DNA of 28,596 nucleotides from Neocallimastix lanati (nom. inval.) (lineage: Eukaryota; Neocallimastigomycota; Neocallimastigomycetes; Neocallimastigales; Neocallimastigaceae). How positions within the stretch are numbered: the first letter of the stretch is position 1; each line of letters opens with the position of its first letter. Below are positions 5,901-27,917 of the stretch, in pieces. The notes under the pieces are model-generated. The model was not told where the DNA came from. It was given only the letters and a program-made list of their open reading frames with translations, and did not search any database. The stretch lies in contig JACVTC010000440.1 in NCBI GenBank assembly GCA_016946835.1, positions 1 through 28,596 on the forward strand, read 5' to 3'. The position numbers and the translations under genes were made by a program.

Positions 5901-7106
5901 TTTATAATCATTAATCTTAACAGGTATTCGTACAATGATTCCTTCCGAATACTCATCATTCTTAGTCGCTAAACGTATCCTTCCACGACTAATACCTACT
6001 TCTTCATAATTTCCAGGTAATTTCTCATAAAATTTTTTTGTGATAACATTGAGGTTACTACAAGAATCAATAAGTGCTTTACCAGGAATTTCATCTACTG
6101 TTACATCAACCATGGCAATATCTTCTTCTGAGGTTTCCTTACTTTTGCTAATATAAGAGTGATCAATATTATTTACCAAAGTAGCAGCAGCAATAGTATT
6201 GTTTAATGCACCTATTATTTTCTTTTCAGGTTTTTCTAATTTTAATCCTTGACTTACTTGACTTCTGACTTTTGGAGAAACATTGAGGAGCTGACCGAAA
6301 CTAATATTACACTTGGTTTCATTCAAATCTTGTAAAACATCATATTCTTCCTGATCCTTACACATCTTGATGTTCCTAAGCGTTCTACTAATTGTTGCTT
6401 TTTCTTTAGGCTCTTGAAAATCTATGAGCTTCTGTAATGTAATATTCTCATGACCTTCGTCATTAAGCTTTTCAGGAACTTCAATAACTTCCATTTCATT
6501 GATTTGTTTTGTTTTAATAATTTTATCGTTTTCAGTTATCGATTAATTTATTTAATCGTTGATGCATTTTATCACTAGTAGTACTGATGCTATTTCTTTG
6601 TTTTGAAGAATCCAGACTTTGCTTTTCTCTTATAGTAATATTATCCTCCCTTTCCTTCCTTTTTCCCTTGTTATTTCCAAAGTTAGCTCTTTCTTTATTC
6701 CGAATTTGTTTTTCTTTGGCTTTCTCAATATTTATATTAGGCTGCGCCATTATCGAAGGATGTATTTGATTTTTATTTTTAACAATTATTCTATTTTCTA
6801 TTTCCTTCTCTTTTATCTTTCTTATTGCAGGAGTTGTTATAGGGGTAGGATTATCTTTGAGACTTTTACGTTGTCTCTTTTCATTATTTTCACTAGTTTC
6901 AGTCGTTAGTCGTCAACTTCCTTTTTGTCGCACTAACTATAAATTCTACATCATTCTCCATTATCGGATTCTTTGTGAGTTTCATTAGTATAGGAAGCAT
7001 CTTCTTTTTCTTCCTTATTATAATCATTTGTACTACTAGGAATGGATTTGTATTGTAATGAAGCTATTTTATTTTTATAGGGAGTGCTTCCTCTCCCTTT
7101 TAGTGG
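2990..7106 (-). pseudogene. pol: pol of A-I, interrupted by one-base insertions
   Basis: This is the same polyprotein as in A-II. RT, RNase H and integrase are uninterrupted from 5851 down to 2990, including FIDD in RT, TDAS in RNase H, and the HHCC and DD35E residues of integrase. Upstream, the protease and the N-terminal linker are split into three frames by single extra bases at 5893/5894 (C), 6535 (G), 6902 (G) and 6958/6959 (C) relative to A-II. Few amino acids differ from A-II in the intact part (for example A/T, K/E, V/I and M/K changes), so the copy was under protein-level constraint until recently. All breaks are insertions and none is a deletion, so uncorrected sequencing error is a serious alternative to true decay. 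Without the breaks, expression would be by -1 frameshift from gag. Confidence 0.88.
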
Positions 7107-7112
7107 TTTAAA
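7060..7112 (-). promoter_or_regulatory. -1 ribosomal frameshift signal of A-I
   Basis: Slippery heptamer U UUA AAC (7106-7112, minus) lies in the gag frame two codons before its stop. Then come 8 nt, GGGAG (7080-7084), an 8-nt loop holding GAAGC, and CTCCC (7093-7097). After 15 nt comes GCTTC (7060-7064), which can pair with the loop GAAGC as an H-type pseudoknot. The geometry is identical to A-II and B. Confidence 0.85.
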
Positions 7113-7995
7113 GATTTTCCACTATATAACCGTTTCTTATTTTCTTGAATAATTGCATTTAACTTAGGACAATTATACTGCAAATGTCCTGGATCGCTAC
7201 AATAAAAACAGGCTTTAATGGTAAGATTTTTCATTTTTTTTGTTAAGTCCTCCAATTCGTAATCTTTATTTCTTTTTGGGCTTCTAACTTCATAATTCTC
7301 TCTTACTACCTTTCTGTTGTTTTGATAATTATTCCTGATATTTATTCTTGGGTTGACAATTTCAGTTGAAGTACTCTTTTGAGGGTCTCAAATTCATTAC
7401 TCTATCAACCTTTTTCGGCAATGTCAAACGCCCGATTTAAAGAAATGTCATCCTTAAGGGAGACCTTTTTCCAAGCTTCTTCATTGTTCCTAAGAGCATC
7501 AATATAATCGAGAACACTGACTCGCTTCTTTCTTTTCTTATCTAATTTCAAATATATGGATCGGAAACGAGTATTAAAGTCTTTTACTCGCTCATTTCTT
7601 TTAATTCTTAAAGCACGGAGCTCACGAAGTAACATATTCTGGTCTTCTTTAAGACCATAAAAAGTTTCTATTGCTTCTACAATTTCCTTTAAGGAAGGAT
7701 ATTCATCTTTTTTCTTTTCTTCTGAATCAGATTCTTCTTCTTCTTCGTCCTCACTTTCTGATTCAGAATCGGTACTGTAACTTTCAATTAAATCCTGGAT
7801 AACTTCGCGAGGCTCTCCAGTAGACGTGAGTAAGCAGGCGGTAAAAATCTTTTTGGGATCAGTAACTTCCTCAAGTTTTATCCATAATCGGATTTCTGAT
7901 TCCCAAGATTTGATATCGAGATTTTCCTTTGAAATTTTCTCGATATCTTTTAATTCCTTTTTTAATTCTTTAAAATTGATTTTATTTTCAGCCAT
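7100..7995 (-). pseudogene. gag: gag of A-I, frameshifted
   Basis: This encodes the structural Gag protein that would form the particle and bind element RNA. The start is set at the ATG at 7995 (MAENK...), which aligns with the family B start; the open frame continues upstream only from a TTG. The first two thirds are intact: a helical Gag core, then a run of Ser, Asp and Glu, then basic blocks. Relative to A-II an extra T in 7411-7415 and an extra A at 7369/7370 shift the frame, so the CCHC zinc knuckle lies in another frame. Both insertions fall in or beside homopolymers, so a sequencing artefact is possible. The end overlaps the frameshift signal leading into pol. Confidence 0.87.
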
Positions 7996-8117
7996 TTGAA
8001 AATTTAAAAATGGTATTAATGCTATGATATCCAATTTAAAAATATCGTTTACTTTAAAAATATATTTAATAACAAAAAAAAAATAAATTTATCTTTGTTT
8101 TATACTAATATAATTAT

Positions 8118-8287
8118 GGACTCAGAAAACCCTCTGACAATCCAATTCTTTATTCCAATAATAATTCAGACTCAGAATCTCTCTCTGAAAATCTGATAAA
8201 TTAATTCAGACTCGAAAACACCCTTCGAAAATCTGAAACTAAAAAAAAAATAAATTCAGACTCAAAAACGCAATTTGAAAATCTGAA
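8118..8287 (-). repeat. Four-unit hairpin repeat array in the A-I leader
   Basis: Four imperfect units (8118-8143, 8166-8196, 8205-8237, 8255-8287) each fold into a two-tier hairpin. On the plus strand this is an outer stem such as TTCAGA/TCTGAA, an internal loop CT opposite AAAA (ACAA in the first unit), an inner stem and a 6-7 nt loop. The inner stems are CAGA/TCTG twice, CGAA/TTCG and CAAA/TTTG, so paired positions change together. The array ends about 120 nt before the gag ATG. A role in packaging, dimerisation or translation is inference. Confidence 0.8.
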
Positions 8288-8589
8288 GCTTTTTATTATG
8301 AATTTTAATATTTATTATATTCTCTTAAGCATTAATACACAGAATATGTATATCTTAATTTTTTTTCTAAATTTATTTGTAGTAATAACTTCTTTATTTA
8401 ATTTTATTTAATATATTTATTTCCTTTATTAAAATAATTAATATAACATAAAGCAAATTGTATAAATACTTAAATAATAATAATAATGTATATTTATTTT
8501 TATTTTTATTTTTTTTTTTTGTATATATTTATTATTCTATTAATTCTTTGTTATAACCTTTAATGAAATATTAAATAAAAAGTTAAAAT

Positions 8590-8880
8590 ACAAGCCAAAC
8601 TATATAGTGTTGAACCATCAAATATATAGCTTGTTAACCCTTCTTACAATAAGTCCCCTTAGCTCTTTATTGATAAGTTGATAATGTCGATTGTTAATTA
8701 TTAAGAAACTTAATAAAAAGAAGGTAGCAATATTAAATTCTTTTTAATTTGGCTAACTTATTGTTAGTAATAAAGAAGATAATAACGTATCCTTCCCAGT
8801 ATCAACAAGATCAAAACAATAAAGTATTATGTGTGGGTGTTCAACTATCCCGCGTAGAGAGTTGTAAGACAGCTTATTTA
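8590..8880 (-). other. Conserved structured leader segment, A-I
   Basis: This segment is richer in G and C than its surroundings and almost unchanged in A-II (17660-17940). It starts with a two-part stem, ACAAG (8590-8594) with CTTGT (8640-8644) and CTATATA (8600-8606) with TATATAG (8633-8639), with five extra bases on one side. I found no ORF, tRNA or known ribozyme motif. It is probably a folded part of the leader RNA. Confidence 0.45.
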
Positions 8881-9269
8881 TATTTTTCTTTTTAATTAAA
8901 ATTTAATTAATTATATAACGAATAATAGAAAATTTAACACACACAAAAAAAAATTTCAATTATAAAAATTTCGAAAAAAAAAAAATTTAATTATATAAAA
9001 TCATAAAAATAATACACTTATTTGAAAAATAATAATAATAATCTAATTTTATATATTCTATATATATATATTGTACATGTATATATTAAAAAAAAATAAA
9101 ATAAACTGATAAACATAAAAAAAAAATTACAATTTATTATTTAGAATTATTAATATAAAAAAAAAATTTATTTATAAAATTTATTCTTATTTAAAAAAAA
9201 AATTAAAAATTTGTACTACAAAAAAAAAAAATTTTTTTTGCTTATTATTTTAATATTTATCATTAATTA

Positions 9270-9273
<4 letters not shown>

Positions 9274-9328
<55 letters not shown>

Positions 9329-9370
9329 TATATAAATCTATATCTATGATAATACTATTGGTTAAAAAAA

Positions 9371-9426
<56 letters not shown>
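9274..9426 (-). repeat. Two about 52-nt pure T tracts, poly(A) in the sense RNA
   Basis: Uninterrupted T runs lie at 9274-9325 and 9375-9426, separated by ordinary AT sequence. In the element transcript they would be internal poly(A) stretches. Lengths differ in A-II, as expected for homopolymers and for their sequencing. Confidence 0.9.
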
Positions 9427-9432
<6 letters not shown>

Positions 9433-9664
9433 TTGTTCTACACTAAAGAAAAATTTAATTTATTATTTATTAAAAAAAATTTATTAATGAAATATTTATT
9501 ATTTTAATAAAAGGAAAAAAAATATATATATATTTTTATTTTATTGCAAAAATAATAATAATAATAATAATAATAATAGGCGAACAAATTTATAAAAGCC
9601 TAAAATAAAAATAAAAAAAAACTATATATTTTAACGTCACTTCGCAAGAATGACCAGGGTTTTA

Positions 9665-9848
9665 TCAGGGATCGAACCTGACCCACCTCTTATTTTCTGC
9701 GCGAGTGAACAAACTATCACCTGTTGAAGTGTGTAGTTGCCTTCAGCGTGAAGGTTTTATAGTTCTAGGGCGTATTTGCCTAATTGTCAAGGATTTGTTC
9801 CTTGAGATACTCGCGTTTACAATCTACAAAACCTTGCAAAATTGTAAA
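9665..9848 (-). other. Multi-helix RNA domain in the A-I leader, with a T-arm-like hairpin
   Basis: Perfect stems nest here. CGCGAGT (9700-9706) pairs with ACTCGCG (9809-9815). This encloses AACTAT/ATAGTT (9712-9717 with 9759-9764) around hairpin CCTTCA-GCG-TGAAGG (9740-9754), plus hairpin CAAGGA/TCCTTG (9788-9804). TTTACAAT/ATTGTAAA (9816-9848) follows. At 9665-9681 the minus strand forms a perfect tRNA T-arm, TCAGG-TTCGATC-CCTGA, with a B-box, but no matching acceptor stem. A-II lacks the whole region. Confidence 0.6.
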
Positions 9849-10013
9849 TAAGAGTTTATGAAATTAATATCCTGCAAGCTAACACTGTCTTACTCGAATA
9901 TTAACTTCGTAAATTTGTTAACTTTTTATTATTTTTTTTTTTATTATTATTTTTTTATTCTATAATCTATAATTAAATGAAGTTACTACAAAAACTAAAG
10001 TTTTCCAAAGTTT

Positions 10014-10014
<1 letters not shown>

Positions 10015-10045
<31 letters not shown>
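10015..10045 (-). repeat. 31-nt T tract bounding the A-I-specific leader segment
   Basis: Sequence resumes match to A-II (ATAACTTTTATTATTATT...) immediately after this run. The extra A-I leader is therefore bounded by T tracts on both sides (9375-9426 and here). Confidence 0.85.
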
Positions 10046-10047
<2 letters not shown>

Positions 10048-10116
10048 TATAACTTTTATTATTATTAATATTAATATTAAATTATTAATTATTATTATTT
10101 AACAAAACTTATGGAT

Positions 10117-10270
10117 AATCTGATAGTATACCCTGTCTGACGTGCAGCTTGCCTCTTCACGGCGTCATGCCACGCGGGTACCACGGCTACTGTATTCAAT
10201 ATAAAATACAGCAGTCCAGAGCCTACTAGCCCAATTACTATGTAGGTTAAACTTAGCCCGGAAATCTATA
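10117..10270 (-). other. Leader block conserved between families A and B (A-I copy)
   Basis: This GC-rich island matches 18568-18721 (A-II) closely and 26075-26230 (family B) clearly, with exact blocks such as CTGTCTGACGTGCAGCTT and a CCTAC/GTAGG hairpin with an identical 15-nt loop (10222-10246). The stem CTGTATT/AATACAG (10190-10196 with 10205-10211) becomes CTATATT/AATATAG in B, a compensatory change. Conservation without an ORF points to RNA structure. The function is unknown. Confidence 0.75.
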
Positions 10271-10332
10271 TCCAAGGCTTTGTTAAATAATTTAATTAAT
10301 AAATAATATTAAATTTTATTTTTCTAATATTC

Positions 10333-10348
10333 CCCGATATCTCCACCA
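10333..10348 (-). promoter_or_regulatory. Primer-binding site of A-I
   Basis: The minus strand reads TGGTGGAGATATCGGG, 7 nt inside the LTR. It begins with TGG, the complement of a tRNA 3' CCA. It would match a tRNA with acceptor GGAGATA/TATCTCC, discriminator A and T-stem CCCGA. I cannot name that tRNA. The same site is present in A-II and B. Confidence 0.75.
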
Positions 10349-10355
10349 TAAATTA

Positions 10356-12065: not shown

Positions 12066-15000
12066 CTAATCTATAGCTGAGTTATACTTTACTATATTTT
12101 TCAAATGAACATTACGATTCATTTGAATCATAGTATTTGGGTCCGCAAGTGTTACGGTATTAAATTGTTTTTTTATTACTTTTAAAGGACCGACAAAATA
12201 AGGTTCTAATTTAGAACGACTAAAATTTCGAACAAGAACTAAATCGCCGATTCTTATGTTTTTGGAATTTTTCATGCTATTTTTTTCTTCTCTTCGATTG
12301 GCCCAATATTTACTTGCGTTCTTTACATTTTCAGCTGCTTCCTTGGTCCACCTATAATGTGAGATAAATTTTTCTAAAAGAATTTCATCTGAAGATTTAT
12401 TCACTCCTTGTGTAGGTCTAGCAGCAATGTCGAAAGGCTGTTGATCCTCACGACCATAAACTAATTCGAAGCTAGAATGTTTGGTTACAGAATTCTTTGT
12501 AGTTCTAAGGGCCCACAAGGCTGAAGGTAATACCTCATCCCAGTCTTTATTTTCTTCACCAAGTAATCTCAATAATTTACCAATTTCTTTATTCCTATTT
12601 TCAACCAATCCATTACTTTCCGGGTGATAGGTAGTGGTAAATTTTACGTAAACATCATATAAGTCCAGGAATATTTTAGTCATATCCGATGTGAATTGAA
12701 CGCCATTATCCGTTGTAATGACTTGAGGAACTCCATGTCTAGCGAAAACATTTATTAAAAACTTAATGATGTCCTTAGATGTAATATTTTCAGTAGGTTC
12801 AGCCTCCACCCACTTTGTGAAATAATCCACCGCAACAATGATATATTGGTTTTTATTACCAGTTTTTATTAAGGGACCAATAATATCAAGTCCAAGATGA
12901 GTAAAAGGGCCTTCAACTTCTGTTGGAATGTTTTCGGTTGGTTCTGGATATGGCTGAGGGCGATTTAACTGACATTTTTCGCATTTTGAAATTATCCGTT
13001 TTATATCGTTGACCATATCATTCCAGTAGTAACTTTTTCTAAGTCTTTGATATGTTTTATAATAACCTTCATGGCCAATATGATGTGCTTCGAGAATTAA
13101 TTTTAGTTTTTCATTTGTTTCGGTAACAAGTTTTCTATAATTATTTCCATCTATAAAATAATCTATACCATCAATCTTTGTAAATTTTTCTTCAATAAAT
13201 TCTTTAATTACTTTAGAAAGTGAATCATTTTCATCATCTTTATTCGTTTTTATAGCTAATACCTTTTGTTCTTTATCGTTCTTCATTCTAGATAAAGCGT
13301 CGGCTACTACATTCTTTTTACCTTGCTCATAGCGAATATCCACTTTTAGCATACTTGCAGTCAAACACCATCTTGTTTGTCGTGCATTATTCGGTTCCTT
13401 ATTATTAAATAAACCTAGTAGAGGTTTGTGATCTGTAAAAACTATGGTTCTAAAGGGGCTTCCCATAATATAAGGTTTTAATTTAGTAATACAATAATAT
13501 AAAGCCGTTCCTTCCAAATCGGTTATTCCATAATTCTTTTCTGCTTTGGTTAAGCTACGGCTAATGAAATGAATCGGGTGTTCTATTTCCGATTCGTCTT
13601 TCTGCAATAAAACTCCACCAATACCTTCATATGATGCATCTGTTCGAATAATGAATTCTTTGGAAAAATCAGGATATTTTAAAATAGGAGCATTAATTAA
13701 TTTTTCTTTTAATTTGGTAAAACTTTGTTTTTGTTCATTATTCCATTTATATTTTACGCCTTTTCTTAATAGCTTACAAAGAGGAGCTGAGGTTTGAGCA
13801 TATTCATTTATAAAGTTCCTATAATATCCTACAGCACCTAAGAATGATCTTAACTCATGTATATTCGTGGGTTCTTTCCAGGCTTTAATTGCTTCAATTT
13901 TACTATTTTGAGGACTTAGACCCTTAGTAGAAATCTTGTGACCAAGAACTTCAACTTCCGTTTGCATAAAGTGACATTTTTCAATATTAATTTTTAATTT
14001 ATGTTCCTTGAAGATTGCTAATACCTGTTTTATGTGTTGGATATGTTCTTCGACAGTTTTTGAATATATAAGTATATCATCAATAAAGTTGAAAACACAT
14101 TTTCCGATTAAAGGAAATAAAATTCTATTCATTTCCCGTTGGAAGGTAGCCGGAGCTCCAGTTAATCCGAAAGGCATAACTTTGAATTGGTAGTTGCCAA
14201 ATTTGGTTGTAAAACTGGTTATTTCAACACTTTCTTCGTCCATTAAGATTTGATGGTAACCTGAGTATAGATCCATAGTAGTAAAGATTTTGGCACCATC
14301 TAAACTGTCAAATATCTCGTCAATATATGGAAGGGTATAAGAGTCTTTTTCGGTTAGATCATTCACCTTGCGGTAGTCCACACACAATCTCCATTTTCCA
14401 TTAGCCTTTGGGACCACAACAACAGGTGAAGACCATTCTGAATAAGATGGTACAACTAGCTTTTTCTTAATAAGTTTAATTAGTTCTTCTTTAATAATAT
14501 CCGATTTAAATTTGGTTACCCTGTAACATCTTTGTTTAACAGGTTTTGCGTTCGCTTTCAAGTTAATCTTATGAGGTGCTAAGTCTGACGGGGTTAATTC
14601 TTCAGAAGATGTCGCTATAATGTCCAAGTTTTCTTCAAGTAATTTTACTATTACATCTTTATAATCTTTACAAAGACTTGCTAAAAATTTTTCATCATGG
14701 ATATACTCTTGCGGAGATAGACCTTCAAGTTTCTTTAATTCATTAGTTGTGTCTTCATCTTCAAGTATTTTCCTTACTATACATACTAATTTTTCTTCTT
14801 CTTGGAAATTATTATTAATAGGAGCTATAACGTCGATTAGTCCTTGAGAATTAAATTGACATAAACTATATCTTATAGGATGGATAAAAAGATTGTGTTC
14901 TACTTGAGTTTGAAAATTAATCAACAAATCATAAAATGGGTCATCATCATCAATTATACGAAAATCTACTATCATTTTATAATCATTAATCTTAACAGGT

Positions 15001-16178
15001 ATTCGTACAATGATTCCTTCTGAATACTCATCATTCTTAGTCGCTAAACGTATCCTTCCACGACTAATACCTACTTCTTCATAATTTCCAGGTAATTTCT
15101 CATAAAATTTTTTTGTGATAACATTGAGATTGCTACAAGAATCAATTAGTGCTTTACCAGGAATTTCATCTACTGTTACATCAACCATGGCAATATCTTC
15201 TTCTGAGGTTTCCTTACTTTTGCTAATATAAGAGTGATCAATATTATTTACCAAAGTAGCAGCAGCAATAGTATTGTTTAATGCACCTATTATTTTCTTT
15301 TCAGGTTTTTCTAATTTTAATCCTTGACTTACTTGACTTCTGACTTTTGGAGAAACATTGAGGAGCTGACCGAAACTAATATTACACTTGGTTTCATTCA
15401 AATCTTGTAAAACATCATATTCTTCCTGATCCTTACGCATCTTGATGTTCCTAAGCGTTCTACTAATTGTTGCTTTTTCTTTAGGCTCTTGAAAATCTAT
15501 GAGCTTCTGTAATGTAATATTCTCATGACCTTCGTCATTAAGCTTTTCAGGAACTTCAATAACTTCCATTTCATTGATTTGTTTTGTTTTAATAATTTTA
15601 TCGTTTTCATTATCGATTAATTTATTTAATCGTTGATGCATTTTATCACTAGTAGTACTGATGCTATTTCTTTGTTTTGAAGAATCCAGACTTTGCTTTT
15701 CTCTTATAGTAATATTATCCTCCCTTTCCTTCCTTTTTCCCTTGTTATTTCCAAAGTTAGCTCTTTCTTTATTCCGAATTTGTTTTTCTTTGGCTTTCTC
15801 AATATTTATATTAGGCTGCGCCATTATCGAAGGATGTAGTTGATTTTTATTTTTAACAATTATTCTATTTTCTATTTCCTTCTCTTTTATCTTTCTTATT
15901 GCAGGAGTTGTTATAGGGGTAGGATTATCTTTGAGACTTTTACGTTGTCTCTTTTCATTATTTTCACTAGTTTCATCGTTAGTCGTCAACTTCCTTTTTG
16001 TCGCACTAACTATAAATTCTACATCATTCTCATTATCGGATTCTTTGTGAGTTTCATTAGTATAGGAAGCATCTTCTTTTTCTTCCTTATTATAATCATT
16101 TGTACTACTAGGAATGGATTTGTATTGTAATGAAGCTATTTTATTTTTATAGGGAGTGCTTCCTCTCCCTTTTAGTGG
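12066..16178 (-). CDS. pol: Pol polyprotein of A-II (protease, RT, RNase H, integrase)
   Basis: Copies element RNA into DNA and integrates it. The frame is open from the slippery site (16178) with no ATG near its start; the 1307-residue reading beginning at 15989 starts with TTG. It is therefore expected as a Gag-Pol fusion with about 1370 pol residues. In the 1307-residue numbering: a Lys/Asn-rich linker (1-230); protease motif ALIDSCSN with Asp283, where DSC replaces the usual DSG/DTG; RT with the FIDD box at 635-638; RNase H with TDAS (Asp784) and TDHKPL; integrase zinc finger His969/His973/Cys1003/Cys1006; catalytic Asp1035, Asp1094 and Glu1130 (D,D35E spacing); and a GPY/F-like module (EPYFVGPLKV). 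It ends soon after VHLKNIVKY, so there is no chromodomain. Confidence 0.95.
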   Translation of the reverse strand, partial: PLKGRGSTPYKNKIASLQYKSIPSSTNDYNKEEKEDASYTNETHKESDNENDVEFIVSATKRKLTTNDETSENNEKRQRKSLKDNPTPITTPAIRKIKEKEIENRIIVKNKNQLHPSIMAQPNINIEKAKEKQIRNKERANFGNNKGKRKEREDNITIREKQSLDSSKQRNSISTTSDKMHQRLNKLIDNENDKIIKTKQINEMEVIEVPEKLNDEGHENITLQKLIDFQEPKEKATISRTLRNIKMRKDQEEYDVLQDLNETKCNISFGQLLNVSPKVRSQVSQGLKLEKPEKKIIGALNNTIAAATLVNNIDHSYISKSKETSEEDIAMVDVTVDEIPGKALIDSCSNLNVITKKFYEKLPGNYEEVGISRGRIRLATKNDEYSEGIIVRIPVKINDYKMIVDFRIIDDDDPFYDLLINFQTQVEHNLFIHPIRYSLCQFNSQGLIDVIAPINNNFQEEEKLVCIVRKILEDEDTTNELKKLEGLSPQEYIHDEKFLASLCKDYKDVIVKLLEENLDIIATSSEELTPSDLAPHKINLKANAKPVKQRCYRVTKFKSDIIKEELIKLIKKKLVVPSYSEWSSPVVVVPKANGKWRLCVDYRKVNDLTEKDSYTLPYIDEIFDSLDGAKIFTTMDLYSGYHQILMDEESVEITSFTTKFGNYQFKVMPFGLTGAPATFQREMNRILFPLIGKCVFNFIDDILIYSKTVEEHIQHIKQVLAIFKEHKLKINIEKCHFMQTEVEVLGHKISTKGLSPQNSKIEAIKAWKEPTNIHELRSFLGAVGYYRNFINEYAQTSAPLCKLLRKGVKYKWNNEQKQSFTKLKEKLINAPILKYPDFSKEFIIRTDASYEGIGGVLLQKDESEIEHPIHFISRSLTKAEKNYGITDLEGTALYYCITKLKPYIMGSPFRTIVFTDHKPLLGLFNNKEPNNARQTRWCLTASMLKVDIRYEQGKKNVVADALSRMKNDKEQKVLAIKTNKDDENDSLSKVIKEFIEEKFTKIDGIDYFIDGNNYRKLVTETNEKLKLILEAHHIGHEGYYKTYQRLRKSYYWNDMVNDIKRIISKCEKCQLNRPQPYPEPTENIPTEVEGPFTHLGLDIIGPLIKTGNKNQYIIVAVDYFTKWVEAEPTENITSKDIIKFLINVFARHGVPQVITTDNGVQFTSDMTKIFLDLYDVYVKFTTTYHPESNGLVENRNKEIGKLLRLLGEENKDWDEVLPSALWALRTTKNSVTKHSSFELVYGREDQQPFDIAARPTQGVNKSSDEILLEKFISHYRWTKEAAENVKNASKYWANRREEKNSMKNSKNIRIGDLVLVRNFSRSKLEPYFVGPLKVIKKQFNTVTLADPNTMIQMNRNVHLKNIVKYNSAID

Positions 16179-16184
16179 TTTAAA
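16132..16184 (-). promoter_or_regulatory. -1 ribosomal frameshift signal of A-II
   Basis: Heptamer U UUA AAC (16178-16184, minus) is in the gag frame as TCT TTA AAC CAC TAA. An 8-nt spacer is followed by GGGAG (complement at 16165-16169), loop AGGAAGCA, and CUCCC (complement at 16152-16156). After 15 nt comes GCUUC (16132-16136), which can pair with the loop GAAGC. Slipping back one base puts the ribosome exactly in the open pol frame. Confidence 0.9.
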
Positions 16185-17065
16185 GATTTTCCACTATATA
16201 ACCGTTTCTTATTTTCTTGAATAATTGCATTTAACTTAGGACAATTATACTGCAAATGTCCTGGATCGCTACAATAAAAACAGGCTTTAATAGTAAGATT
16301 TTTCATTTTTTTTGTTAAGTCCTCCAATTCGTAATCTTTATTTCTTTTTGGGGTTCTAACTTCATAATTCTCCCTTACTACTTTTCTGTTGTTTTGATAA
16401 TTATTCCTGATATTTATTCTTGGGTTGACAATTTCAGTTGAGTACTCTTTTGAGGGTCTCAAATTCATTACTCTATCAACCTTTTCGGCAATGTCAAACG
16501 CCCGATTTAAAGAAATGTCATCCTTAAGGGAGACCCTTTTCCAAGCTTCTTCATTGTTCCTAAGAGCATCAATATAATCGAGAACACTGACTCGCTTCTT
16601 TCTTTTCTTATCTAATTTCAAATATATGGATCGGAAACGAGTATTAAAGTCTTTTACTCGCTCATTTCTTTTAATTCTTAAAGCACGGAGCTCACGAAGT
16701 AACATATTCTGGTCTTCTTTAAGACCATAAAAAGTTTCTATTGCTTCTACAATTTCCTTTAAGGAAGGATATTCATCTTTTTTCTTTTCTTCTGAATCAG
16801 ATTCTTCTTCTTCTTCGTCCTCACTTTCTGATTCAGAATCGGTACTGTAACTTTCAATTAAATCCTGGATAACTTCGCGAGGCTCTCCAGTAGACGTGAG
16901 TAAGCAGGCGGTAAAAATCTTTTTGGGATCAGTAACTTCCTCAAGTTTTATCCATAATCGGATTTCTGATTCCCAAGATTTGATATCGAGATTTTCCTTT
17001 GAAATTTTCTCGATATCTTTTAATTCCTTTTTTAATTCTTTAAAATTGATTTTATTTTCAGCCAT
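16172..17065 (-). CDS. gag: Gag of A-II with CCHC zinc knuckle
   Basis: Capsid/nucleocapsid-type protein of 297 residues that should assemble particles and bind element RNA. The start is the ATG at 17065 (MAENKINFKELKKELKD). The 13 codons before it are open but begin with TTG, and the chosen ATG aligns with the family B start. Visible parts: a helical N-terminal half with IKSWESEIRLWIKL; an acidic run of Ser, Asp and Glu near residues 70-95; KDFNTRFRSIYLKLDKKRKKR, typical of retrotransposon Gag cores; an Arg/Asn-rich stretch; and one zinc knuckle CFYCSDPGHLQYNC (C-x2-C-x4-H-x4-C, about residues 262-275). The stop falls two codons after the slippery heptamer, and pol follows in the -1 frame. 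Confidence 0.95.
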   Translation of the reverse strand: MAENKINFKELKKELKDIEKISKENLDIKSWESEIRLWIKLEEVTDPKKIFTACLLTSTGEPREVIQDLIESYSTDSESESEDEEEEESDSEEKKKDEYPSLKEIVEAIETFYGLKEDQNMLLRELRALRIKRNERVKDFNTRFRSIYLKLDKKRKKRVSVLDYIDALRNNEEAWKRVSLKDDISLNRAFDIAEKVDRVMNLRPSKEYSTEIVNPRINIRNNYQNNRKVVRENYEVRTPKRNKDYELEDLTKKMKNLTIKACFYCSDPGHLQYNCPKLNAIIQENKKRLYSGKSLNH

Positions 17066-17189
17066 TTGAAAATTTAAAAATGGTATTAATGCTATGATAT
17101 CCAATTTAAAAATATGTTTACTTTAAAAATATATTTAATAACAAAAAAAAAAAAATAAATTTATCTTTGTTTTATACTAATATAATTAT

Positions 17190-17357
17190 GGACTCAGAAA
17201 ACCCTCTGACAATCCAATTCTTTATTCCAATAATAATTCAGACTCAGAATCTCTCTCTGAAAATCTGATAAATTAATTCAGACTCGAAAACACCCTTCGA
17301 AAATCTGAAACTAAAAAAAATAAATTCAGACTCAAAAACGCAATTTGAAAATCTGAA
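17190..17357 (-). repeat. Four-unit hairpin repeat array in the A-II leader
   Basis: The same four units as in A-I at 8118-8287, with only spacer homopolymers differing. The first unit reads GGA-CT-CAGA-loop-TCTG-ACAA-TCC on the plus strand. In the sense RNA each hairpin has UUUU or UUGU opposite AG between its two stems. It lies about 125 nt before the gag ATG. Confidence 0.8.
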
Positions 17358-17659
17358 GCTTTTTATTATGAATTTTAATGTTTATTATATTCTCTTAAGC
17401 ATTAATACACAAAATATGTATATCTTAATCTTTTTTTTTTAAATTTATTTGTAGTAATAACTTCTTTATTTAATTTTATTTAATATATTTATTTCCTTTA
17501 TTAAAATAATTAATATAACATAAAGCAAATTGTATAAATACTTAAATAATAATAATAATGTATATTTATTTTTATTTTTATTTCTTTTTTGTATATATTT
17601 ATTATTCTATTAATTCTTTGTTATAACATTTAATGAAATATTAAATAAAAAGTTAAAAT

Positions 17660-17940
17660 ACAAGCCAAACTATATAGTGTTGAACCATCAAATATATAGC
17701 TTGTTAACCCTTCTTACAATAAGTCCCCTTAGCTCTTTATTGATAAGTTGATAATGTCGATTGTTAATTATTAAGAAACTTAATAAAAAGAAGGTAGCAA
17801 TATTAAATTCTTTTTAATTTGGCTAACTTATTGTTAGTAATAAAGAAGATAATAACGTATCCTTCCCAGTATCAACAAGATCAAAACAATAAAGTATTAT
17901 GTGTGGGTGTTCAACTATCCCGCGTAGAGAGTTGTAAGAC
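17660..17940 (-). other. Conserved structured leader segment, A-II
   Basis: The counterpart of 8590-8880, nearly unchanged in sequence, including the ACAAG/CTTGT plus CTATATA/TATATAG stem (17660-17704). No coding frame or known RNA motif was recognised. Confidence 0.45.
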
Positions 17941-18339
17941 AGCTTATTTATATTTTTCTTTTTAATTAAAATTTAATTAATTATATAACGAATAATAGAA
18001 AATTTAACACACAAAAAAAAAAAATTTCAATTATAAAAATTTCGAAAAAAAAAAAATTTAATTATATAAAATCATAAAAAATAATACACTTATTTGAAAA
18101 ATAATAATAATAATCTAATTTTATATATTCTATATATATATATTGTACATGTATATATTAAAAAAAAATAAAATAAACTGATAAACATAAAAAAAAATTA
18201 CAATTTATTATTTAGAATTATTAATATAAAAAAAAAATTTATTTATAAAATTTATTCTTATTTAAAAAAAAAATTAAAAATTTGTACTACAAAAAAAAAA
18301 AAATTTTTTTTTGCTTATTATTTTAATATTTATCATTAA

Positions 18340-18345
<6 letters not shown>

Positions 18346-18406
<61 letters not shown>

Positions 18407-18447
18407 TATATAAATCTATATCTATGATAATACTATTGGTTAAAAAA

Positions 18448-18496
<49 letters not shown>
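18346..18496 (-). repeat. Pure T tracts in the A-II leader
   Basis: T runs at 18346-18403 and 18452-18496 (poly(A) in sense RNA). The second run is directly followed by the sequence that in A-I lies after the 31-nt T tract at 10015-10045. A-II is therefore a T-tract-bounded deletion relative to A-I, or A-I an insertion. Confidence 0.9.
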
Positions 18497-18499
<3 letters not shown>

Positions 18500-18567
18500 A
18501 TAACTTTTATTATTATTAATATTAATATTAAATTATTAATTATTATTATTTAACAAAACTTATGGAT

Positions 18568-20554: not shown

Positions 20555-23500
20555 TCAAGCTTCTCTGTAAGCGGAGTTAAACTTTACTAAATTTTTAAAA
20601 TGAACATTCCTATCGAGTTGTTTCCCAGTTTTCTGATCGATTAAGGTTGCCGTGTTGAATTGAATTTTTAAAATTTTAAATGGTCCATTGTAATATGGTT
20701 CTAGCTTAGTGCGGCTAAAGTTTCTAACAAGAACAAGATCACCAGCTTTTAATTCTTTTCCTTTTTTCATACTTATTTGTTCTTCTCGTCTTGTTGCCCA
20801 ATACTTGTTAGCATTCTTCACATTTTCGCATGCTTCTCTAGTCCATTGATAATGACGAACAAATTTTTCCATTAAAATTTCATCATACGATTTACCTGCA
20901 TTTTCAATTGTTCTTATGGCTATATCATAAGGCTGTTGGTCTTCTCTTCCATATACTAATTCAAAACTAGAATGTCCGGTAGCTGTGTTTTTGGTAGTTC
21001 GAAGTGCCCATAAAGCAGAAGGTAAAACTTCATCCCAATCTTGATTTTTCCTTCCTAATAAACGAAGTAATTTTCCAATTTCTTTATTTCGGTTTTCAGT
21101 GAGACCATTGGATTCAGGGTGATAGGTAGCTATGAATTTTACATAAACATCATAAAGATCAAGAAAGATTTTAGTCATATCAGAAGTGAATTGGACTCCA
21201 TTATCTGTAGTAATAACTTGAGGCACACCATGTCTTGCAAAAACGTTTATTAAAAATTTAATTATATCAGAGGAAGTTATGTTTTCAGTGGGTTCGGCTT
21301 CAACCCATTTGGTAAAGTAATCAACAGTTACTATAATATATTGATTATTATTTCTTGTTTTTGGTAACGGTCCTATAATATCTAATCCTAAATGCACAAA
21401 GGGACCCTCCACTTTAGTTGGATGGTTTTCGGTTGGTTCTGGATATGGTTGAGGACGATTTAACTGGCATTTTTCACAATTACTAACAATTCTTTTGATA
21501 TCTTTAATCATATGATTCCAATAAAAGTTTTTCTTAAGTCTTTGATATGTTTTGTAATATCCTTCGTGGCCAATATTATGAGCTTCTAAAATTAATTTAA
21601 ACCTTTCATTTTCGTCCGTTATTAATTTTCTATAATTTCCATTGTCGATAAAATAATCTTCACCATCAATAACAGTAAACTTTTCATTAATAAATTCCTT
21701 TATAACTTTAGATAATAATTCTTCATTATTTCCATTAGTAATTTTTGTTAATAATATCTTTCTCTCTTCCTTACTTTTCATTCTTGAAAGAGCATCAGCT
21801 AACACATTCTTTTTGCCTGATTCATATTTTATATTAATTCCGAGCATACTAGCGGTTAGACACCATCTTGTTTGCCTTGCATTCAAAGGTTCTTTATTCT
21901 TAAATAAACCAACTAATGGTTTATGATCTGTGTAAATAGTTGTAGGTAATGGATTTCCTTCAATATAAGATTTAAATTTAGTCATACAGTAAAACAAAGC
22001 GGTTCCTTCTAAATCGGTAATACCATAATTCTTTTCAGCTTTCTTTAAACTTCTACTTATAAAGTGTATTGGATGCTCCTTACCGGTTTCTTCTTCTTTT
22101 TGTAAAAGAACTCCACCAATTCCATTATACGAAGCATCAGTTCTAATGATAAAAGGTTTGTCAAATGACGGAAATTTTAGAATAGGTGCATTGATTAATT
22201 TTTCTTTTAGGAGTTCAAAGCTTTCTTGTTGTTCTTTATTCCATTCATATTTGGTATTCTTTTTCAATAATTTACATAAAGGTGAGGTAATTTGAGCATA
22301 TTTAGGAATAAAATCACGATAATATCCCACTGCTCCTAAAAATGATCTTAATTCATGAAGTGATGAAGGGGCTTCCCACTTCTTAATAGCTGTTATCTTA
22401 CTTTCCATGGGACTTAATCCTTTAGTAGTAAGTTTGTGACCTAATACATCAACTTCAGTTTGAAGAAAATGGCACTTTTCAATATTAATTTTTAACTTGT
22501 TTTCTTTAAATACTTCTAATACTTGTTTAATATGAATTAAATGTTCTTCGATACTTTTTGAATAGATCAAAACATCATCAATAAATACATAAACAAATTC
22601 ACCAATAAAAGGGAATAAAATTTTATTCATTTCTCTTTGGAAGGTTGAGGGAGCTCCAGTAAGTCCAAAAGGCATAACCTTAAATTGATAATTTCCAAAC
22701 TTAGTAGTGAAAGTGGTTACTTCAACGCTTTCTTCATCCATTAAGATTTGGTGAAAACCAGAAAATAAATCAAGAGTTGTAAATATTTTAGCTCCTCCGA
22801 GACTATCAAAAATTTCATCTATATATGGAACTGAATAAGAATCTTTTTCTGTCATATCATTGACTTTTCGGTAGTCAATGCACAAGCGCCACTTTCCATT
22901 GTGTTTTAGAATGAGTACTACTGGAGATGACCATTCTGAACAGGATGGTTCTATCAATCCTTTCTTAATAAGCTTTGTAAGTTCTTCTTTTAAGATATCT
23001 GATTTTAATTTAGTTAACCTATAACTTCTTAATTTTACTGGCTTTGCATTTGCTTTCAAACGGATCTTATGTGGTGAAAGTTTAGAAGGAGTTAGTTCTT
23101 CTGTTGAAGTGGCAACTATGTCAATCATTTCTTTGAGAATTTTAATAATTTGTTCTTTATAATCTTTATTTAAGGTACTTAAAAATTCATCACTCTCAAT
23201 AAATTCCATTGGAGTTAATTCCTTTATAATTTCCTTTTCATTATTCGTTTCTTCAACTTTTCTAATAGTGCAGATTATACTTTCTTCATCATAATATTGA
23301 TTATTTATTTTAGCTATTTCTTCGTATTCACTTTCTGACAAAAGTTTACATAGACTGTTTAAGGTTGGATGAATAAATAAACAATGATCGATTTGAGTTT
23401 TAAAGTTTATTAACATATCATAAAATGAGTCTTCTTTCTCAATAATTCTAAAGTCCGCATTAAATTCATAATTATTAATTTTTACTGGTAATCGAACAAT

Positions 23501-24544
23501 AATTCCTTCCGAGTATTCTTCATCTTGTGTTGCTAGTTGGATTCTTCCACGACTTTTTCCAACTGTTTCATATTCACCAGGTAATTTATCAAAATACTGC
23601 TTAGTAACGATGCTTAGGTTACTACAAGAATCAATTAAAAGTTTTCCTAGTACTCCGTCAACACTTGCATCAACCATTGCTAAGTCTTCTTCGGCTACTT
23701 CATTACTTTTACTTATGTAGCTATGGTCATAGTTATTTACTAATAAAGTTCGTGCTATTACATTGTCTACAGTTCCAATTATTTTAGACTTTTCTAACTT
23801 TAAACCTTGAGTTAATTGTGAACGAATTTTAGGACATGCATTCAAGAGTTGACCTATCGTAATACTGGATTTAAGATTATTTAAATCATCCATAATATTG
23901 TAAGGTTCTTTATTATTCATCATTTTGATATTCCTTTTTACTAATTGAGTATTTCCATTATTAGTTTCCTTAGTTTTTGTTGAAATTAATTTTTCCAAAG
24001 TATTAGTTTTATTTTGTTGATTATCTTTATTCATTTCTAGATCTTCTATTTCATTATCGATTACAAGTATATCTTCAGATTCAACTTTTTCCTTTCCTTT
24101 TGATGAATAATTGTTGTTTTCTTCTTTACTTTCTCTTACTCTTGTCATATTTCTTAATTCCTTTTCTTTTTGTTTTTCTTTGTTAATATTTGGTTGAGTT
24201 AAAATTGAAGGAAGTATTTGATTTTTATAAACTTTATTTGGTTTATTATGCAGCTCATTTTCTTTCTTCTTTCTTAAAGCAGGAGTTGCAAAAGGACGTG
24301 GATTATCTTTTAAACTTTTATGTACTTTCTTGGAATTATTTTCTTCTTTTTCGCTGTTATTATCATTCATTTTTCTTTTTACAGCATTTATAATGATATC
24401 ATCCTCACTAAAATCAGATTCTTCAGATTCTTCGTTAAAGGAATTATTATCAATTGGAGTATTCTTAGTAAAAGTATTATTTTGTAAATTATTTAATGAA
24501 GCTATTGTTTTGTCATTGGGAGTGCTTCTGCTCCCATTTAGAAG
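20555..24544 (-). CDS. pol: Pol polyprotein of B (protease, RT, RNase H, integrase)
   Basis: Same enzyme set as A-II. The frame is open from the slippery site at 24544 (about 1329 residues). An ATG at 24370 begins a 1271-residue reading but aligns with the non-ATG start region of A, so it is probably an internal Met and the protein a Gag-Pol fusion. In the 1271 numbering: protease LLIDSCSN with Asp247, again DSC rather than DSG/DTG; RT FIDD at 596-599; RNase H TDAS and TDHKPL; integrase zinc finger His931/His935/Cys965/Cys968; catalytic Asp997, Asp1056 and Glu1092; and a GPF module (YYNGPFKILK). It ends NLVKFNSAYREA with no chromodomain. The frame is fully intact. Confidence 0.95.
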   Translation of the reverse strand, partial: LLNGSRSTPNDKTIASLNNLQNNTFTKNTPIDNNSFNEESEESDFSEDDIIINAVKRKMNDNNSEKEENNSKKVHKSLKDNPRPFATPALRKKKENELHNKPNKVYKNQILPSILTQPNINKEKQKEKELRNMTRVRESKEENNNYSSKGKEKVESEDILVIDNEIEDLEMNKDNQQNKTNTLEKLISTKTKETNNGNTQLVKRNIKMMNNKEPYNIMDDLNNLKSSITIGQLLNACPKIRSQLTQGLKLEKSKIIGTVDNVIARTLLVNNYDHSYISKSNEVAEEDLAMVDASVDGVLGKLLIDSCSNLSIVTKQYFDKLPGEYETVGKSRGRIQLATQDEEYSEGIIVRLPVKINNYEFNADFRIIEKEDSFYDMLINFKTQIDHCLFIHPTLNSLCKLLSESEYEEIAKINNQYYDEESIICTIRKVEETNNEKEIIKELTPMEFIESDEFLSTLNKDYKEQIIKILKEMIDIVATSTEELTPSKLSPHKIRLKANAKPVKLRSYRLTKLKSDILKEELTKLIKKGLIEPSCSEWSSPVVLILKHNGKWRLCIDYRKVNDMTEKDSYSVPYIDEIFDSLGGAKIFTTLDLFSGFHQILMDEESVEVTTFTTKFGNYQFKVMPFGLTGAPSTFQREMNKILFPFIGEFVYVFIDDVLIYSKSIEEHLIHIKQVLEVFKENKLKINIEKCHFLQTEVDVLGHKLTTKGLSPMESKITAIKKWEAPSSLHELRSFLGAVGYYRDFIPKYAQITSPLCKLLKKNTKYEWNKEQQESFELLKEKLINAPILKFPSFDKPFIIRTDASYNGIGGVLLQKEEETGKEHPIHFISRSLKKAEKNYGITDLEGTALFYCMTKFKSYIEGNPLPTTIYTDHKPLVGLFKNKEPLNARQTRWCLTASMLGINIKYESGKKNVLADALSRMKSKEERKILLTKITNGNNEELLSKVIKEFINEKFTVIDGEDYFIDNGNYRKLITDENERFKLILEAHNIGHEGYYKTYQRLKKNFYWNHMIKDIKRIVSNCEKCQLNRPQPYPEPTENHPTKVEGPFVHLGLDIIGPLPKTRNNNQYIIVTVDYFTKWVEAEPTENITSSDIIKFLINVFARHGVPQVITTDNGVQFTSDMTKIFLDLYDVYVKFIATYHPESNGLTENRNKEIGKLLRLLGRKNQDWDEVLPSALWALRTTKNTATGHSSFELVYGREDQQPYDIAIRTIENAGKSYDEILMEKFVRHYQWTREACENVKNANKYWATRREEQISMKKGKELKAGDLVLVRNFSRTKLEPYYNGPFKILKIQFNTATLIDQKTGKQLDRNVHFKNLVKFNSAYREA

Positions 24545-24550
24545 TTTAAA
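24498..24550 (-). promoter_or_regulatory. -1 ribosomal frameshift signal of B
   Basis: Heptamer U UUA AAC (24544-24550, minus) reads TCT TTA AAC TTC TAA in gag. An 8-nt spacer leads to GGGAG, an 8-nt loop CAGAAGCA and CUCCC (24518-24535). After 15 nt comes GCUUC (24498-24502), complementary to the loop GAAGC. Spacer, stem, loop and 15-nt connector lengths equal those of family A although spacer and connector sequences differ. Confidence 0.9.
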
Positions 24551-25443
24551 GACTTTTTGGAATATATTTCTTTTTTATTTTTTTCCATAATCTTATTTAA
24601 TTGAGGGCAATAGTATGAGTAATGACCTTCTTCCTTACAGAAGAAGCAAGTTTTAACGGATAAATTTCTCATTTTCTGGGTTGATTCTTCTATAATATCT
24701 TGAGGTTTCAGTTTATTATTTGTTTGACTTGTTTGGAAAGTTTCGTTTCTTCTTTTAGGATAAAGTCTTGAAGTAGTACTGTTTTGATTATTTTGATTAT
24801 GCTGGGAATTATTAACATTATAGGTATTAATATTATTGTTCCTTACAGAAAGTCTATCTACTTTCTCGGCAATTTTGAAAGCTTTCTCCATACTTATATC
24901 ATCTTTAAGGGATAATTTCTTCCAGGCTTCATAATTATTTTGAATAGAATCAATATAATCTAGTACACCAATGCGCTTTCTTCTCTTTTTATCAAGTTTA
25001 GTGTACAAAGTTCTATATCTTACATTAAAGTCTTTAATCTTTTCGTTTCTTTTAATTCGCATTGCACGAAGTTCTTTAAGAAGTAAATTTTGGTCTTCTT
25101 TAATACCGTAAAAATTTTCAAGACTTGAAATAATTTTTTCAAGAGAAGGAAATTTATCATCATCAACATTTTCTTCTTCATCATCTTCTTCTTCATCTGA
25201 TGAATCATCACTTTCATCATCACTATCTTCTCCCAAATCTTCAATAACGCGTTGTACTTCACCAGAGCTGGTAAGTAAACAAGCATTAAATATTGTTTCC
25301 GGATCTGTGATACCTTGTATCTTGATCCAAAGTTTTAATTCAGTAGCCCAGGACTTTATATCTAAATTGTCCTTGCTAAGCTTCACTATGTCTCGTAATT
25401 CTTTCTTTAATTCTTTAAAACTTAAAGTACTTTTAGTAGACAT
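24538..25443 (-). CDS. gag: Gag of B with CCHC zinc knuckle
   Basis: Structural protein of 301 residues starting at an ATG (MSTKSTLSFKELKKELRD) that aligns with the A-II start. Conserved with A: LDIKSWATELKLWIKI near the N-terminus, an acidic Ser/Asp/Glu run at about residues 75-95, LRAMRIKRNEKIKDFNVRYRTLYTKLDKKRRKRIG in the core, and one zinc knuckle CFFCKEEGHYSYYC at residues 266-279. Between core and knuckle is an Asn/Gln-rich linker not present in A. The C-terminus, ...KKEIYSKKSLNF, ends just after the slippery heptamer. It probably forms the particle and selects element RNA through the knuckle. Confidence 0.95.
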   Translation of the reverse strand: MSTKSTLSFKELKKELRDIVKLSKDNLDIKSWATELKLWIKIQGITDPETIFNACLLTSSGEVQRVIEDLGEDSDDESDDSSDEEEDDEEENVDDDKFPSLEKIISSLENFYGIKEDQNLLLKELRAMRIKRNEKIKDFNVRYRTLYTKLDKKRRKRIGVLDYIDSIQNNYEAWKKLSLKDDISMEKAFKIAEKVDRLSVRNNNINTYNVNNSQHNQNNQNSTTSRLYPKRRNETFQTSQTNNKLKPQDIIEESTQKMRNLSVKTCFFCKEEGHYSYYCPQLNKIMEKNKKEIYSKKSLNF

Positions 25444-25630
25444 TTCGTTTTTAGTTAATAATTTTTTTTTTTTTTATTATAAATTAACGAGGTTATTAAA
25501 TACGAATAAATTTGAAAGTCCAACTTTAAAAATATAATTTAACAAGTAATTTAATATCGAATCAAATTTTAAAACAATATATCTTAGTAATTTTTGAAAA
25601 TAATAATTTTATTTGCTTTCTTTAGTAAGT

Positions 25631-25905
25631 ATAAGCTCGAAATCCTTATCGACAACTTAGTAGAAATTATAAAGCACGAGGTTCTTTTCGACTACTTTTT
25701 TAAGAATAATTTTAAGTTCGAAATCTTTATCGACAACTTAATAGAATAATTTTAAGTTCGAAATCTTTATCGACAATTCAATGAAATAATTTTAAGTTCG
25801 AAATCTTTATCGACAACTTAATAGAATAATTTTAAGTTCGAAATCTTTATCGACAACTTAATAGAATATTTTTCAAGCTCGAAATCTTTATCGACCACTT
25901 GAATT
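25631..25905 (-). repeat. Seven-unit 40-bp hairpin repeat array in the B leader
   Basis: Units begin at 25633, 25672, 25714, 25754, 25794, 25834 and 25875 (period 39-42 bp). Each folds as an outer stem TAAG/CTTA, an internal loop of 2 nt opposite 4 nt (CT or TT opposite ACAA), an inner stem CGA/TCG and an 8-nt loop. The outer pair varies as T-A (TAAG/CTTA), C-G (unit 7) and A-T (unit 2), which is covariation inside the array. It lies about 190 nt before the gag ATG, the same place as the A array. Confidence 0.85.
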
Positions 25906-26833: not shown

Positions 26834-26900
26834 ATCAATATAAAATAAAAAAAAATTAAAAAAAAAATCTATGTTATTTACTATTATTTCTATTTAATTC

Positions 26901-26916
26901 CCCGATATCTCCACCA
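26901..26916 (-). promoter_or_regulatory. Primer-binding site of B
   Basis: The minus strand reads TGGTGGAGATATCGGG, 6 nt from the LTR. It is identical to both A elements even though the LTRs have diverged, so both families use the same primer tRNA. Confidence 0.75.
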
Positions 26917-27302: not shown

Positions 27303-27805
27303 TTATTTATTTAAAAATATCTAAAATATTACTAATAAGAATTTATTTAATTGGCTAAAATTTTTATTACAATCTGTTAAAATATTCAAATAAAAATAAA
27401 AATACTATTCTAATATAAAGGTTTTTTAATAAAATAAAATATTTTTCAATATAAAATAAAACATTTCGATATAAAATTTTATAATAAAAGTTAAAATATA
27501 ATATATAAATTTTAATTATCAATATATAAAAATATTATTAATACAAATTTTCATTATTAATATAAAAATAAAAAAATAAGATTTATTATTAATATTGTTA
27601 ATATAAGTTTTAAATATATAAAAAATATTACTATTAATATAAGATTTAATATAAAAATTATAAAGTTTAATATAATTTTTGATCTAATTTTTAATCTTTG
27701 AATTTAAAAATTTATTAAAGTACAAAAATAATAATGTACACATAATGTATTAGAAAATAAATCGTAGATTTAATTAAGAATGCATTATTTAGTACATTCT
27801 TATCA
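26923..27805 (-). repeat. LTR of B, 5' LTR in element sense
   Basis: TGTTAAGG...TTCTTATCA, with T tracts at 27134-27158 and 27255-27300. This is the start of B transcription, pointing away from the tRNA gene 15 bp beyond its end. The terminal inverted repeat lies at 27733-27798. Confidence 0.93.
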
Positions 27806-27809: not shown

Positions 27810-27820
27810 TCAATCAGATT

Positions 27821-27892
27821 TCCGCACTGGTCCAGTGGCTAGGATTCCACGCTCTCACCGTGGCGGCCGGGGTTCGATTCCCCGGTGCGGAG
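27821..27892 (+). tRNA. tRNA-Glu (anticodon CTC)
   Basis: Full cloverleaf: acceptor TCCGCAC/GTGCGGA with discriminator G, D-arm with GTCCAGTGGCTAGGAT, anticodon stem CCACG/CGTGG with loop CTCTCAC (anticodon CTC at 27854-27856, reads GAG), and T-arm GGGGTTCGATTCCCC. Internal Pol III promoters fit: A box TGGTCCAGTGG (27828-27838) and B box GGTTCGATTCC (27871-27881). There is no intron and no encoded CCA. It is the evident target of the retrotransposon stack: the TFIIIB-binding region upstream is now retrotransposon LTR. Confidence 0.98.
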
Positions 27893-27917
27893 TGTAAATA
27901 CTAAATTCAAATATTTC

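Follow-up and report, generated by a model that had tools for sequence, protein, structure and literature searches.

What is the row of small hairpins that precedes gag in the retroelements of this locus, and what might it do? An earlier note, made from the letters alone, had proposed that two element families, A and B, carry arrays of one design with unrelated stems, and that the design is a candidate undescribed RNA motif, which matches confined to leaders of tRNA-targeting elements would support. The window analysed here, 28,596 nt of contig JACVTC010000440.1 of Neocallimastix lanati, comes from a genome of 199 Mb in 762 contigs. It holds three Ty3/gypsy elements (A-I, A-II and B), arranged in tandem on the minus strand beside a tRNA-Glu gene:

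7405..7995, minus strand: start of A-I gag, frame interrupted, 196 aa open (compare A-II gag)
12066..15824, minus strand: A-II Pol (RT, RNase H, integrase)
16172..17065, minus strand: A-II Gag, 297 aa, one CCHC zinc knuckle
20555..24370, minus strand: B Pol (RT, RNase H, integrase)
24538..25443, minus strand: B Gag, 301 aa, one CCHC zinc knuckle
26899..26916, minus strand: candidate tRNA primer-binding site of B, sense TGGTGGAGATATCGGGGA
27792..27805, plus strand: B 5' LTR, outer end; the tRNA gene lies 14 nt away (entered as C380:27792-27877)
27820..27893, plus strand: tRNA-Glu (CTC) gene, the insertion target

The Pol order (RT, RNase H, then integrase) and the CCHC in Gag are those of Ty3/gypsy elements, and the single CCHC knuckle is invariant across the 16 Gags aligned. 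Among the 78 proteins listed as Gag relatives, the named ones belong to Orpinomyces (Orpsp1 identifiers), Piromyces, Neocallimastix and Anaeromyces. A long leader separates the LTR end from gag (about 2.4 kb in A-I, 1.7 kb in A-II and 1.5 kb in B). The gag and pol frames of A-I are broken (window 2990-7995), those of A-II are open. A-I also carries about 580 nt absent from A-II (9428-10016), with a flanking direct repeat AAAGTTTGTT at 9428-9437 and 10007-10016 and, by eye, a B-box-like GGTTCGATCCC on the minus strand; this extra segment is perhaps a SINE-like insertion. Alignment of the A and B leaders showed a strongly similar stretch of about 160 nt (minus strand, 10105-10295, 18553-18743 and 26055-26235) with at least one paired change (CTGTATT...AATACAG vs CTATATT...AATATAG) and, for the A-I and B copies scanned, no Rfam match at E<=1; it is probably a second structured leader domain, judging from its sequence.

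Regarding the target sites, the B-box-like string GGTTCGA was found 50-80 nt beyond the B LTR end at 137 places (71+66) and the reversed pattern at none; a control distance of 350-380 nt gave three places (2+1), and in all three tRNA sequence adjoins the end of the LTR. For A the LTR end gave 29 places (12+17), with the reversed pattern, here the control, again at none. The LTR ends of both families lie just upstream of tRNA or tRNA-like (Pol III) genes, the placement expected of Ty3-like targeting. Many of the A and B sites listed precede a repeated tRNA-like sequence (AGAACTTTGGTTCAATGGTTAGTTAC...) that is not an obvious standard tRNA and is perhaps a tRNA-derived repeat used as target. Examples of a gag together with an LTR-tRNA site are C224:415451 with C224:418648, C237:29522 with C237:32682, and C241:11544 with C241:14802; a gag of a further family, F1 (C323:984433), lies 2.8 kb from the LTR-tRNA site C323:981579. 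The string of the B candidate primer site recurs at 10331-10348 and 18782-18799, and is also present in family F7.

The hairpin array before gag in A and its repetition in A-II are real. The A-I array (8115-8287) consists of four hairpins on the gag-sense (minus) strand, and all units of A-I and A-II are gag-sense. Units located by covariance model are as follows:

8115..8146, minus strand: A-I unit nearest gag (number 4 in RNA order), with UUGU opposite AG, 35.2 bits, also by fold
8165..8197, minus strand: A-I unit 3, loop GAGAGAU, 40.5 bits
8205..8237, minus strand: A-I unit 2, loop GGGUGUU, 41.5 bits
8255..8287, minus strand: A-I unit 1 in RNA order, loop UUGCGUU, 39.1 bits
17187-17218, 17237-17269, 17277-17309 and 17325-17357, minus strand: A-II array, the same four units as A-I
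25630-25661, 25669-25700, 25711-25742 and 25751-25782, minus strand: first four of the seven units of the B array
25791-25822, 25831-25862 and 25872-25903, minus strand: remaining three units of the B array

The arrays sit near the gag end of the leader, with a distance to gag of about 120 nt in A and about 190 nt in B; overall, array placement is about 120-580 nt before gag. The B array (25630..25903) is a 40-nt tandem repeat, and several of its units are near-identical copies. The inner stems CAGA/TCTG, CGAA/TTCG and CAAA/TTTG are present as claimed. The unit with UUGU opposite AG, described as the first of both A and B, is first only along the plus strand (8115-8146 and 25630-25661) and last in RNA order.

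For each of the 12 type-1 units (that is, units of the array kind) tested, ViennaRNA predicted a hairpin bulged by 1-3 nt on its 5' side, with z-scores against shuffles of -1.03 to -3.27 (weakest in A unit 3, -1.03, and B6, -1.25) and a moderate stability of -4.4 to -11.9 kcal/mol for single units in isolation. The internal loop of 4x2 nucleotides given in the note did not hold: folding pairs two of its nucleotides, so that UUKU/AG becomes a bulge plus two pairs and a 5' bulge fits better. An A unit reads, in sense RNA (L079), UUCAGAUU-GU-CGAA-GGGUGUU-UUCG-AGUCUGAA, and the window copy has the bulge UU. A reading of the units as introns (hairpin borders GU...AG) was rejected: the commonest B units end in AA and the F3 units in GG or AA. 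Stems had been called unrelated between A and B; this is right for the outer stems, where the turnover is, and not for the inner stem, which is mostly UC(R)A/U(Y)GA. No Rfam family matched the array, either in a gathering-threshold scan of the window or when the leaders of A-I and B were scanned down to E<=1.

For comparison, 24 gag-leader stretches were taken from genome G000, 22 by Gag match (of differing classes) and two (L091, L092) by their B arrays; the family names F1 and F3-F7 are our own. The type-1 bulged hairpin was present in 17 of the 24 leaders, and the F4 leaders carry a second hairpin type:

F1 (L069-L071): two type-1 units each
F3 (L072, L073, L089): type-1 units
F5 (L077, L078): two type-1 units each
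F6 (L083, L084): three type-1 units each
A-like (L079): four type-1 units
B variants (six leaders): 5 to 10 type-1 units per leader
F4 (L074, L075, L076, L090): second hairpin type in the place of the array

The second type (GATATATTTRGGGG...CTAGTTTATATC; repeated in F4 as GAUAUA-U-UURG...YUAG-UU-UAUAUC) replaces the array in F4 and occurs once in F5, where it follows the type-1 units (L077, L078). Across seven rows, 94.8% of its pairs were kept (88.8 in shuffles) and three pairs were changed on both sides, in itself an unexceptional result (133 of 500 shuffles). Neither hairpin type was found in three of the 24 leaders (L080, L085, L086). In the F7 leaders (L085, L086) gag begins about 190 nt after the primer-site string, without an array. 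The Gag of L080 is 97% A-like, and the stretch upstream of it is unrelated and holds no array; L080 is perhaps a chimeric or rearranged copy. Relatives of the array were absent from the viral contigs and prokaryote genome contigs scanned.

The frequency of such hairpins by chance was assessed in the last 700 nt before gag with a descriptor of the pairing (at least three G-C pairs), a 5' bulge of 2-4 nt and the loop size, which not every array unit passes. It found three hairpins each in A-I, A-II and L079, five in B, two and two in F1, two in F5 and four in F6, one of the last (-560) not being an array unit. The means in dinucleotide shuffles were 0.02-0.09 for A-I, A-II and B, and 0.02-0.15 over all leaders with descriptor hairpins; none of 500 shuffles equalled the observed count, except one of 500 each for L071 and L077. 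The antisense strand gave no descriptor hairpin in any of 16 leaders. The GC-filtered descriptor found none in F3, F4, F7 and L080. When longer stems with at least two G-C pairs were used, the F3 leaders gave 3, 2 and 2 hairpins (0, 0 and 5 of 300 shuffles giving as many), F4 one and one (32 and 36 of 300), and F7 and L080 none.

A covariance model built from eight A and B units (R1) matched, at E<=1 in the window, exactly the 15 array units (4+4+7), all in sense. When L069-L080 were included there were 29 matches (the 15 of the window and 14 in the loci), all of them sense array units. The leaders L081-L092 gave 53, again all sense, of which 52 were array units. In these scans all 82 matches at E<=1 were sense and 81 were array units upstream of gag, the sole exception being a weak match at L082 48-81 (E 0.36) that overlaps the gag start. 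The outcome that the earlier note had named as refuting, random AT-rich matches as frequent as leader matches, was absent for this model. Confinement of the motif to leaders was examined in the window and in short leader stretches. Regarding families held out of the model, R1 found all six F1 units (E 1.7e-6 to 0.0029) and all four F5 units (E 3.9e-4 to 6.4e-4); all six F6 units were also found (E 1.2e-4 to 5.4e-3). The F3 units were missed with default filters. With filters off, in ten leaders (three of F3 and seven without the type-1 motif), the 11 best matches were all in F3 (E 0.0057-0.99), and the best match in the seven leaders without the motif had E 4.1.

Models from single families behaved differently from R1. 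A B-only model (R2) did not detect A and detected F5, F6 and, weakly, F1, with off-array signal at L085 602-624 (E 0.024). An A-only model (R3) did not detect B and detected F1, and also F3, the latter at E 0.6; its off-array matches lay at window 7720-7768 and 16790-16838, on both strands (E 0.013-0.12). Since each misses the other family, A and B are linked through intermediates (F1, F5, F6) and not directly, and the direct kinship that had been proposed is not supported.

Covariation was examined in 453 copies of the unit, 42 of them distinct, collected from 95 leader strings by similarity alone (at most seven mismatches), with pairing not required. The strings represent about 91 places: L001-L003 all cover one array and L004-L006 another, and the window itself supplies L018 and L040. 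A unit list that demanded pairing (G.U allowed, A.C not) gives a biased G.U 30 vs A.C 7. Covariation was scored on 35 of the distinct units, leaving out the five from F5/F6 and two variants from F3; as the rows are related, shuffles overstate significance throughout. In the 35 units, 89.1% of the cells were paired against 75.7 in shuffles (sd 1.0) and 64 cells were changed on both sides against 19.3. There were 20 pair types against 16.1 (one of 500 shuffles as high), and the covariation score was 0.498 against 0.234, a slid register giving at most 0.162. The number of double-change pairs in the 35 units was unexceptional (7 vs 5.7; 112 of 500 shuffles). Two placements of the bulge paired almost equally well (89.0 vs 89.4% in an alignment of 19 units, which omits minor variants; 89.1 vs 90.4% in the 35 units); B6 units suit the first register and B1-type units the second, so that the bulge can slide by one.

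The standing cells of the 42 distinct units included 35 G.U, 10 A.C and 11 other mismatches; the G.U excess lies mostly at one closing pair, which is U.G in 19 units, U-A in 13, C-G in 3 and never unpaired. Changes within a unit type comprised A.C 10, G.U 9 and five other mismatches, and to Watson-Crick pairs two one-sided and three two-sided changes. Young copies thus showed neither a preference for G.U nor a sign of selection on pairing in these within-type changes. The covariation is thus seen on comparing unit types and families with one another, and not within sets of recent copies. An element acting as RNA is favoured over one acting as DNA and is not proven, because the within-type changes do not favour G.U over A.C (9 vs 10). 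The claim of an undescribed RNA motif is supported as to structure, absence from Rfam, stems that covary between unit types and placement in leaders of elements whose LTR ends lie by tRNA genes; it is not supported as to the 4x2 loop, wholly unrelated stems and the direct link of A with B.

Two further properties bear on function. The first five nucleotides of 17 loops (16 different, GAGGAA being shared by F5 and F6) held 39 G among 85 positions, where random leader positions gave 10.9 and at most 27 in 20,000 draws, and 71 purines among 85, against 46.2 at random positions. Loop sequence is not strictly constant, A unit 1 having UUGCGUU. Predicted hairpins exposing purines and G in the leader near gag are what is looked for in a packaging signal. 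The second property is a scarcity of sense AUG relative to dinucleotide shuffles: 10 vs 27.0 in the A-I leader (7995-10355; antisense 19), 11 vs 20.9 in A-II (17065-18806; antisense 18), 3 vs 17.1 in B (25443-26925; antisense 11), and 1-3 vs 6.4-10.2 in the leader stretches tested of F1, F3, F5, F6 and F4. One AUG near the 3' end of the F5 and F4 stretches resembles the true gag start. The LTRs were not depleted (6 vs 6.6; 9 vs 9.7). Because the leaders are AUG-poor, ribosomes probably scan them, the array included; if so, the gag mRNA includes the array, and gag synthesis could be blocked by any protein held tightly there.

The best single reading, which we hold tentatively and at somewhat less than an even chance, is that the array is a set of Gag-binding packaging hairpins and perhaps also a translational operator. 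The array would be a row of hairpins in the genomic RNA and gag mRNA, presumably transcribed and folded in vivo. Each predicted unit would offer an outer stem that varies between types yet stays paired, then a 5' bulge of 1-3 nt, an inner stem starting UCRA/UYGA in most types, and a loop of 5-8 nt, mostly purine-rich, with an exposed G. The element's own Gag may bind at multiple sites through its single CCHC knuckle and so mark the RNA for packaging into particles; as ribosomes seem to scan the leader, accumulating Gag may also lower gag translation. This is preferred because of the CCHC Gag, the purine loops and the published work on Ty3 and MMTV. According to a review, Ty3 NC and its zinc finger are required for RNA packaging (PMC4974528), and MMTV Gag binds and needs a single-stranded purine loop, GGAGAAGAG (PMC8096270). 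Counting against it are F7, which has gag and the primer string without an array, F4 with another hairpin, L080 with none, the non-conserved loops, and the within-type changes.

A stricter form, in which Gag molecules bind the bulged purine hairpins cooperatively, stop the ribosomes that must scan past them to reach gag and commit the RNA to packaging, so that the array is an operator titrated by Gag, is considered unlikely. It has a model in the MS2 operator hairpin, which is packaging signal and translational repressor at once (PMC6281560). If true, it would make the array a multi-copy counterpart of that operator, carried by Ty3/gypsy elements whose stems drift and whose hairpin types (type 1 and the second type of F4 and F5) are interchangeable. 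We give no better chance to translation control alone, in which the array sets the pace or path of scanning ribosomes, or is bound by a host factor, and has no role in packaging. The AUG-depleted leaders (A-I and B, for example) and the placement about 120-580 nt before gag suit it, and it would set gag output from a leader of 1.5-2.4 kb; slowing of scanning, however, needs neither purine loops nor a bulge, and single units are moderately stable at best.

That the array acts as DNA, as palindromic protein-binding sites of an insulator or activator, appears distinctly unlikely. The gypsy insulator consists of repeats in the 5' untranslated region (PMC2493044), palindromic repeats are known in Sireviruses (PMC2829016), and the near-equality of G.U and A.C among within-type changes fits this proposal; the standing excess of G.U over A.C (35 vs 10 in 42 distinct units), though mostly at one position, speaks against it, as do a bulge that is one-sided (no 5' bulge hairpin in antisense in 16 of 16 leaders) and half-sites whose sequence varies while pairing persists.

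Simple retroviruses have export elements with repeated internal loops. By analogy, the units may be sites for a host RNA-binding protein, for example in nuclear export or localisation, which is thought improbable: the asymmetric bulge is repeated and its flanks are conserved, but no Rfam family matches. Neutral tandem duplication by template slippage is very improbable, since paired changes between unit types and families and the same array plan in families with differing surrounding leaders argue against it, despite the near-identical B tandem copies, the variation in unit number (5 to 10) across the six B variants and the uncompensated recent changes.

Returning to the reading as Gag-binding packaging hairpins, the closest known systems compare as follows. 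The MMTV ssPurine-loop packaging hairpins are likewise leader hairpins near gag with purine-rich, G-containing loops; the predicted hairpins here differ in belonging to Ty3/gypsy elements, in carrying a bulge and in standing in tandem, as many as ten to a leader among those fetched, with outer stems that have turned over. Ty3 of Saccharomyces cerevisiae shares the Ty3/gypsy Pol, one CCHC in Gag and the association with tRNA genes, whereas the present elements have a long AUG-poor leader with a hairpin array. The MS2-type coat-protein operator has the same order of stem, 5' bulge, short upper stem and loop; its A in the bulge, (x)xYA loop and single TR copy differ from the other bulge and loop letters and repeated units found here (PMC6281560). 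The Drosophila Su(Hw) insulator is also a repeat cluster, placed in gypsy's 5' untranslated region; it is a DNA element, whereas the units here bulge on one side and their arms covary. Sirevirus motifs are repeated and dyad-symmetric in noncoding parts of LTR elements; they are palindromes that lie in LTRs or before env and nearly all have a CGG-CCG core, unlike bulged hairpins before gag (PMC2829016), and the array units do not form symmetric palindromes with that core.

Retroelement leader hairpins are already known; new is a tandem array that keeps a bulge and a purine loop while its outer stems differ, and among the open-access titles and abstract starts listed in searches none describes such arrays. 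The array matters because, according to PMC4974528, neither the sequences that direct packaging of Ty RNA nor the places where Gag binds Ty1 and Ty3 RNA are precisely defined. The covariance model can be used for finding the motif elsewhere, and since the motif is small, repeated and naturally varied in its stems from family to family, it would lend itself directly to testing how Gag recognises RNA in Ty3/gypsy elements.
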